NCBI GenBank assembly: GCA_947625305.1 | Contig: CANQNW010000001.1 | Location: 124,001 to 188,000 of the forward strand | DNA: 64,000 nucleotides | Direction: 5' to 3' | DNA from: Candidatus Gastranaerophilales bacterium | Lineage (GTDB): Bacteria; Cyanobacteriota; Vampirovibrionia; Gastranaerophilales; Gastranaerophilaceae | Shown: one piece after another, positions 15,940-17,400 of the stretch | How the letters are laid out: each line of letters starts with the position of its first letter | Numbering within the stretch: the first letter of the stretch is position 1 | Program-made: the position numbers and the translations under genes | Notes under the pieces: model-generated | Told to the model about the DNA's origin: nothing | What the model saw: the letters and a program-made list of their open reading frames with translations, nothing else | Databases searched by the model: none

Positions 15940-15948
15940 AAGATTAAT

Positions 15949-16020
15949 GCGGGCGTAATTCAGTGGTAGAATGCAACCTTCCCAAGGTTGACGCCGAGGG
16001 TTCGAGTCCCTTCGCCCGCT
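15949..16020 (+). tRNA. tRNA-Gly (anticodon CCC)
   Basis: Full cloverleaf: acceptor GCGGGCG/CGCCCGC with discriminator T. The anticodon arm CAACC-TTCCCAA-GGTTG gives anticodon CCC (reads GGG). The T arm is GAGGG-TTCGAGT-CCCTT. CCA is not encoded. A T8 run follows immediately. The final bases of the gene recur twice downstream. Confidence 0.95.
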
Positions 16021-16184
16021 GTTTTTTTTGTATTTTGATAAATATACAAGGACGAGAACCCTTTCAAGGCAAAGCCTTGACTTGGTTCGAGCGCGAGTGA
16101 GCAGAGGCTGTAGTGACGGATGCGTAGAGCATTCGGCACGAAATGCCGTTTATCGCGAACGAGCAAGAAGTCCCTTCGCCCGCT
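16021..16184. repeat. tRNA-end repeat unit A (164 bp)
   Basis: First of two almost identical units directly behind tRNA-Gly. It starts GTTTTTTTTG, contains stem-loops TCAAGGC/GCCTTGA and CGGCA/TGCCG in a GC-richer core, and ends with AGTCCCTTCGCCCGCT, the same 16 bases that end the tRNA. No coding function is supported. Confidence 0.85.
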
Positions 16185-16346
16185 GTTTTTTGTATTTTGA
16201 TAAATATACAAGGACGAGAACCCTTTCAAGGCAAAGCCTTGACTTGGTTCGAGCGCGAGTGAGCAGAGGCTGTAGTGACGGATGCGTAGAGCATTCGGCA
16301 CGAAATGCCGTTTATCGCGAACGAGCAAGAAGTCCCTTCGCCCGCT
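16185..16346. repeat. tRNA-end repeat unit B (162 bp)
   Basis: Second copy of unit A, identical by eye except for a T-run shorter by two. It again ends in the tRNA-Gly 3' end and is followed by GTTTTT, so the tRNA tail plus GTTTTT occurs three times (16005, 16169, 16331). The core is richer in GC than its surroundings. Confidence 0.85.
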
Positions 16347-16365
16347 GTTTTTATAGCATTTATAT

Positions 16366-17400
16366 TTATTCAATATTGAAATTTTTTATTAAATAAGCCT
16401 TGCCTTGTTTATTATTATAAAAATCATAGTTTATAGGCTGGTCATCTATTTTATTTCTTGATAAAGCAATATAATTCATACCTGTATCTTTAGAATTATA
16501 AGAAATACTATTACTAACAGTTCCGTCTGGCATGTATTTTTTTATATGAATACCTTGATGAGTAGGATCAAATGCAACCCAGCCGTATCTGTCAAAATAA
16601 ACCTCGACCCAGGCATGCGGAGTGTATTGTTCTCTTAAAATATCCCCTGAAACAATTCTGGCCGGAATATTTTTTGCCCGGCAAATTGCTATCATAGCTG
16701 CTGCGTATTCACTACATTTACCTTGTTTCCTTTTAAGCGCCTGTTTTGCGCCAATATTACCCTTAACTGAAGTATATTTAATATTTTTTTGAAGGTATTC
16801 ATATATATTTTGCAGGATTTCTTCTCGGGTATTTCCTTGTATCTTATTTGCTATATCAATTATGTAATTATCATTTGATTCAATCAATCTTTCAGGCTTT
16901 AAATATAAACTTAAATCTGTTCCGGGAGCGGTATTTCGATTATATTTTTCAGCTTCTGTTAAATCATATGTTCTTACTTTAGCACTACCTTCAAATGTTA
17001 TTATCTTTTGTCCCGAAGACAAGTCATTAAAAATATATTCTGCAATACGACCATTAGGAGTATCATAATATTTTTGAGGTTGTTCGGAAATTGATGTTAT
17101 ATCAATATATTGTTTTCCTTCTTCATTAACAGGAATAGGCATTTTGAAATTTAAAGATTTTAAAGCCCCTTTTATATTAATAGTATAAGTATATTTAAAC
17201 TTATAATTTTTAAAATCCGCCATATTATCAGCAATATTATTTTCTTTTACAGCTTTAACCTGAGTTGTTTGTTTAATTTCTTCATTGTTACTGACAGAGT
17301 TAGCAGTATTATCTTTTTGACTAAATAATAAATAACAAAAAACAGCTCCAATTAACAAAACAATACAAAATAAGATTTTATTAATTAAATTCAAATTCAT
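16366..17400 (-). CDS. Transglutaminase-like domain protein, membrane anchored
   Basis: 344 residues. One N-terminal hydrophobic helix (about 7-26, FCIVLLIGAVFCYLLF) anchors it, followed by a linker and a beta-rich region. The C-terminal transglutaminase-like domain has the Cys-His-Asp triad in order: C229 in GKCSEYAAAMIAICRAKNIPARIVSG, H262 in PHAWVEVYF and D278 in AFDPTHQ. Such domains act as cysteine proteases or cross-linking enzymes; the substrate is not predictable. Most of the protein should face the periplasm. It lies alone between two tRNA genes. Confidence 0.85.
   Translation of the reverse strand: MNLNLINKILFCIVLLIGAVFCYLLFSQKDNTANSVSNNEEIKQTTQVKAVKENNIADNMADFKNYKFKYTYTINIKGALKSLNFKMPIPVNEEGKQYIDITSISEQPQKYYDTPNGRIAEYIFNDLSSGQKIITFEGSAKVRTYDLTEAEKYNRNTAPGTDLSLYLKPERLIESNDNYIIDIANKIQGNTREEILQNIYEYLQKNIKYTSVKGNIGAKQALKRKQGKCSEYAAAMIAICRAKNIPARIVSGDILREQYTPHAWVEVYFDRYGWVAFDPTHQGIHIKKYMPDGTVSNSISYNSKDTGMNYIALSRNKIDDQPINYDFYNNKQGKAYLIKNFNIE

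Follow-up and report, generated by a model that had tools for sequence, protein, structure and literature searches.

The two tandem units behind the tRNA-Gly(CCC) gene of this Candidatus Gastranaerophilales genome, which belongs to a gut bacterium, are best read as a Gastranaerophilales variant of the RtT kind of tRNA-tail repeat; by sequence, they are not the RtT of Rfam. Our results suggest that such tRNA-tail repeats are a widespread class of tiny repeats on tRNA ends. In the window, i.e., the whole 64-kb stretch of DNA that was analysed, both ARAGORN and Rfam placed the host gene at 15949-16020. The sequence AGTCCCTTCGCCCGCTGTTTTT, composed of the 16-nt tail of the tRNA from A58 and of GTTTTT, starts at 16005, 16169 and 16331, in agreement with a preliminary description of this DNA that had reported the tRNA-Gly 3' end three times. 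The first 16 nt of AGTCCCTTCGCCCGCTGTTTTT had no further occurrence on either strand of the window. The locus is organized as follows.

15949..16020, + strand: tRNA-Gly(CCC), host gene (ARAGORN; Rfam RF00005, 65.8 bits)
15998..16010, + strand: T-arm core GGGTTCGAGTCCC of tRNA-Gly, present in the units as sense and antisense copies
16005..16020, + strand: tail copy 1, from T-loop A58 to the tRNA 3' end
16021..16047, + strand: unit 1 trailer, a T8 run and an AT-rich stretch as far as the antisense T-arm
16048..16063, + strand: unit 1 antisense T-arm AAGGACGAGAACCCTT, 11/14 against the complement of the tRNA-Gly T-arm, with GAG in the middle
16064..16080, + strand: unit 1 mini-hairpin TCAAGGC-AAA-GCCTTGA
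16084..16091, + strand: unit 1 copy of the T-arm 5' half, GGTTCGAG
16092..16168, + strand: unit 1 C-insert, a conserved palindromic hairpin of family R1
16169..16184, + strand: tail copy 2
16210..16225, + strand: unit 2 antisense T-arm
16226..16242, + strand: unit 2 mini-hairpin
16246..16253, + strand: unit 2 copy of the T-arm 5' half
16254..16330, + strand: unit 2 C-insert hairpin
16331..16346, + strand: tail copy 3, then GTTTTT (to 16352)

Unit 1 (16024-16185) and unit 2 (16186-16347) proved identical at 162 of 162 nt, which bears out the two nearly identical units of about 163 bp described before. The T-runs after the successive tails are T8, T6 and T5, so that the T-run is indeed the sole difference between the units, as had been proposed from T8 and T6. 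Given this identity, the local doubling is recent, as previously supposed, and unequal crossing-over suffices to account for it. The units were also rightly called GC-richer (49% GC, compared to 32% in the flanks and 30% in the window). For unit 1, the fold of the sense strand has an energy of -55.1 kcal/mol (z -3.3), and none of 200 shuffles folded as well; a fold of this strength argues for some constraint. ORFs of 137 and 122 aa traverse the units, and we rejected these through-frames as coding because the tail-to-tail spacing in relatives is variable and often not a multiple of three; the earlier statement that the units hold no gene is thus reasonable. With Rfam, only the tRNA attained the gathering score at this locus. 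The RtT model (RF00391) gave no match in the window at the gathering score and none up to E=10 within 15940-16400, so that the covariance model does not place the window units in RtT. The RtT type of architecture was nevertheless found in them: the unit lies directly behind a tRNA and ends with its 3' part from A58, and it contains an antisense T-arm (11/14, GAG loop) followed by the T-arm 5' half.

The same order of parts was seen along the tRNA strand in the related units: the tail from A58, a trailer that often carries a hairpin resembling an intrinsic terminator, the antisense T-arm, a mini-hairpin (often with a three-base loop), the T-arm 5' half, the palindromic insert (about 78 nt), and the tail and trailer again. 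The antisense T-arm is an imperfect complement of the host T-arm in which the complement of the loop is replaced by GAG. The copy of the T-arm 5' half reads GGTTCGAG, or GGTTCAAG behind tRNA-Leu with TTCAAG. We quantified the match to the host tRNA at 69 loci, corresponding to 73 tRNA- or tmRNA-linked groups minus four tmRNAs, against 4,420 comparisons with other isoacceptors. The tail copy matched its own tRNA at 14 or more of 16 nt at 53 of the 69 loci, compared to 26 of the 4,420 comparisons, and the antisense T-arm matched at 11 or more of 14 positions at 49 loci, compared to 507 comparisons; 16 tail copies and 20 antisense T-arms fell below these thresholds. None of 5,000 label shuffles attained the observed sum of host matches. 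GAG was the middle triplet in 46 of the 49 antisense T-arms.

At many loci, the repeat boundary lies close to the start of the antisense T-arm, 0 to 5 nt past a T-run. Of the 36 final tails that no further antisense T-arm follows, 15 had a repeated segment ending no more than 5 nt from the antisense start, a pattern like that of a target-site duplication. In the remaining final tails, the segment ended earlier or extended further, which we read as decay or as remnants of another unit. Six loci have units interrupted, at differing points, by AT-rich sequence of a similar kind, which probably represents one end of an insertion sequence with a preference for such units. One tRNA-Ser unit runs on into the tail region of tRNA-Leu(CAA) and looks chimeric, either through assembly or through recombination between units.

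In a DNA search of 58 genomes, 34 proved to contain relatives of the unit, nearly all of them within the genus of the window; we retrieved 79 such places from relatives plus one from the own genome, with weaker matches omitted. The sequences are mostly MAGs, and many copies lie at contig ends. Among the 80 locus-strand groups in relatives, a tRNA or tmRNA on the same strand was present at most 350 nt upstream in 52; the other 28 were cut by a contig end (16), had no tRNA (11) or had one on the other strand (1), and in none of the 80 was there a tRNA on the downstream side only. An upstream tRNA or tmRNA on the same strand was likewise found for 18 of the 41 groups of the other-genera subset, where 23 had no tRNA nearby, and for all three of the own genome. 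Including the latter two sets, 23 isoacceptor labels are represented among the linked tRNAs (Gly, Ser, His, Leu, Lys, Arg, Gln, Ala, Ile, Val, Met, Asp and Tyr), to which four tmRNAs are added. Thus, when sought behind other tRNAs of the genome and of its relatives, as the preliminary description had advised, the unit recurred at many of them, on the same strand and mostly with their own 3' ends, and is not confined to this locus.

Occupancy is sporadic. Of 26 tRNA-Gly matches, three carried the hairpin of the window, one carried another insert in the same frame and two, from one genome, carried a third insert; no insert was seen at the remaining 20, one of which is cut by a contig end. No clean empty site was found between near-identical genomes, and insertion is thus inferred from the sporadic occupancy. 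Downstream repetition of the tail was seen for 9 of the 40 tRNA genes in the own genome (at least 14 matches over an 18-nt tail; 8 of 39 distinct tRNA sequences, plus a second tRNA-Asn gene that was merged with its twin). As a control, the best upstream value was 12; tRNA-Leu(TAG) reached 13 downstream. The Lys, Arg and Asn loci of this genome keep the antisense T-arm with quite different inserts, and its tRNA-Ser locus holds three frames with three inserts. Further unrelated insert types were observed at the same place behind tRNAs at five loci, three of them in the own genome. Its Phe, Pro, Met and Leu(GAG) genes repeat the tail without a GAG-marked antisense T-arm and possibly belong to another class.

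A scan of 386 genomes of the phylum for the pattern GATGAGAA, 8-38 nt, GGTTCGA matched 107 genomes, of which 79 (of 170) belong to the family of the window and 28 (of 216) lie outside it, as counted from the scan table; among the matches listed from outside the family, we recognized no clear frame by eye. In viral contigs, 73 stretches showed a similar pattern, which by a rough estimate is not above chance.

We then considered the palindromic insert, family R1. The alignment of 45 inserts contained 19 pairs, 13 of which were changed on both sides, so that the hairpin is conserved and shows compensatory changes. In several members, Watson-Crick pairs take the place of two tandem G.A steps. G-T exceeded A-C by 88 to 7, which identifies the tRNA-sense strand as the folding one. 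The inserts were collected by similarity to the window, and the family may therefore be wider. With the R1 model, we detected four copies at three tRNAs of the own genome and copies in 51 genomes of the bacterial family, the own genome among them; among the family genomes listed, G142 had none, and beyond the family a single weak match (E=0.002) was obtained. Among the 80 of 114 stretches listed, the named R1 records are, with few exceptions, Candidatus Gastranaerophilales MAGs. The hairpin was also present on contigs labelled Muribaculaceae, Acinetobacter and Clostridia, which are likely mis-binned or misnamed. Inserts behind different tRNAs of one genome had a mean similarity of 0.848 (n=44), compared to 0.81 for the same tRNA in different genomes (n=114). 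Moreover, R1 copies lie in frame within a UvrD helicase domain and within an epimerase, both confirmed by Pfam, and a third locus holds two tandem in-frame copies without a Pfam match. Copies thus occur away from tRNAs, some of them in the reading frame of a protein gene. This is the behaviour of an interspersed palindromic element, and the tRNA-linked unit represents one of its modes.

We consider it somewhat probable that the unit is a non-autonomous palindromic repeat of the RtT kind at T-loops, mainly neutral or selfish and expanding by recombination between tails. Its frame would be built from the host tRNA, from the tail at A58 through the trailer, the antisense T-arm and the T-arm 5' half, and the exchangeable palindromic insert would sit in the T-loop of the copied T-arm. 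We propose that the T-loop is a safe place for the element to settle, since the tRNA is not damaged when its tail is duplicated. The host T-arm may be either copied or kept, which would let the tail close a three-way hairpin. Units would be gained and lost through recombination between identical tails, and inserts presumably move, or undergo gene conversion, between tRNAs. Such an element would be mobile, would act on or through single strands and would probably have no essential function.

The strong structural conservation could equally mean RNA function. We hold it possible, if rather doubtful, that a read-through transcript of the tRNA releases an RtT-like small RNA or acts as a trailer or attenuator, the antisense T-arm pairing with either the tRNA or the tail copy to control processing or termination. 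The compensatory pairs and the G-T bias towards the tRNA-sense strand fit this idea. With RNA energies, 35 of 39 units had the antisense-tail helix in their best fold, and with DNA energies 20 of 39 did; as these units were chosen for complementarity, the counts are no independent test. Detection by RT-PCR in pleuropneumoniae (PMC4986893) was counted on the same side. However, a terminator-like hairpin with a T-run lies between the tRNA and the antisense T-arm behind many tRNAs, for instance at L037, L044, L079 and L093 and behind Salmonella tRNA-Pro and Klebsiella tRNA-Ser, so that most transcripts should stop before the unit, and this speaks against an obligate RNA role. The sporadic occupancy, the differing inserts within one genome and the hairpin copies inside protein genes also argue against a functional RNA.

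A bolder reading, which we put forward tentatively and think on balance unlikely, is that of a target-copying class of mobile DNA present in at least two phyla, in which the element, at each move, would duplicate the tail and write a GAG-looped antisense version of the target T-arm into itself, its palindromic cargo being exchangeable and the E. coli tyrT repeats being a relic. Such a class would use the universal T-loop site and leave every tRNA intact, and a repeat boundary this close to the antisense T-arm start would be compatible with fold-back copying from a primer at the end of a transcript or strand; a copying step of this sort is our conjecture.

The preliminary description had suggested a minimal mobile cassette using the tRNA end, with an integrase as its agent. 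This was a fair account of place and anatomy; the mechanism is unproven, and the integrase found no support. A Y1/RAYT transposase was rejected as a candidate, since PF01797 had no match in the own genome, was present in only 5 of 21 family genomes and bore no relation to copy number. We consider it improbable that a tyrosine recombinase inserts small circles at T-loops in an integron-like manner, with the antisense T-arm, the mini-hairpin and the T-arm half serving as a folded attachment site. The insertion point at T-loop A58, tandem inserts at one point, arrays of different inserts such as the three at tRNA-Ser, and the tyrosine recombinases found in 24 of 24 genomes by a PF00589 search (four in the own genome, including two of 185 and 210 aa) would be compatible with it. 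Against it, the 162-nt unit contains no integrase gene or any other gene, and recombinase number does not follow copy number: genome G186 combines 23 hairpin copies with just two tyrosine recombinases, both of XerC/D size, which leaves a dedicated tyrosine integrase unsupported. The attachment sequence also varies between tRNAs, and since the tails differ from host to host, recognition of one fixed attachment sequence is excluded. Family genomes were seen to encode many tyrosine recombinases that are short, at about 180-215 aa, and the number of recombinase matches per genome rises to 16 in G105.

Plain tandem duplication of the region 3' of the tRNA, through slippage or unequal crossing-over and without any mobile component, agrees with the identical window units and is likely the cause of their copy number of two, but as a full explanation it is very improbable and was rejected because one hairpin stands behind more than 20 isoacceptors that mostly carry their own tails and antisense T-arms.

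With the preferred reading, that of a non-autonomous repeat of the RtT kind, what looked like the curiosity of one operon, tyrT, becomes a class with a host-matched plan, different inserts and many tRNAs, extending to a distant phylum. This class has testable rules, namely, a fixed breakpoint at A58, a GAG-marked antisense T-arm and the exchange of inserts, and its plan is a marker for copy-number variation of tRNA tails.

Among known systems, tRNA-targeting genomic islands and integron cassettes share the tail duplication, the breakpoint in the T-loop and the arrays of small modules, and the resemblance of the unit to attC may be seen as an analogy; unlike these, the unit measures 162 nt, lacks an integrase gene and has a tail that differs with each host tRNA. 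REP/BIME elements are also short interspersed palindromes, and rtT was reported to be similar to BIMEs (PMC2965389). Unlike REP/BIME, the window units are larger, and a RAYT-type Y1 transposase is absent from their genome. RPEs (Rickettsia palindromic elements) are not known to carry a host-tRNA tail and an antisense T-arm. By description, they are otherwise alike, being palindromic hairpins of about 80-100 bp that occur in frame in protein genes and between genes (PMC2267715); on our side, it is family members elsewhere, and not the window copy, that lie in frame in protein genes.

The closest likeness is to the RtT repeats of enterobacteria. We observed a common plan in E. coli K-12 tyrT/tyrV, behind Salmonella tRNA-Pro and behind Klebsiella tRNA-Tyr, -Ser and -Pro, with a GAG-containing antisense T-arm at 13-14 of 14 positions (E. 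coli, 13/14; Salmonella, 13/14; Klebsiella Ser, 14/14) and a tail at 17-18 of 18. The RtT covariance model matches the E. coli, Salmonella and Klebsiella units; the insert is RtT at Tyr and Pro, and another sequence stands behind tRNA-Ser. Of the pattern matches, 12 of 13 in the Klebsiella record and 3 of 3 in the Salmonella record stood behind tRNAs; a reversed control pattern gave no match in the Klebsiella record. Among 5,426 E. coli genomes, 4,680 contained RtT, at 1-9 places each. CP125156.1, a 5.37-Mb Klebsiella record deposited as a plasmid, holds chromosomal genes. The tyrT repeats have been known for decades, and we know of no agreed origin for them. In the passages of the later RtT literature that we consulted, we found no description of a host-matched antisense T-arm. 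The open-licence papers searched likewise gave no description of such units outside the RtT literature, and we thus leave priority for the wider class unclaimed. Unlike RtT (RF00391, rttR; E. coli tyrT), the window family belongs to a different phylum, has an insert that the RtT model does not match, uses more than 20 isoacceptors as well as tmRNA, and places its hairpin in frame in protein genes. What the two share is the tandem arrangement of units behind a tRNA, the tail from A58, the GAG-centred antisense T-arm, the copy of the T-arm 5' half, the GC-rich palindromic insert and the variable copy number.
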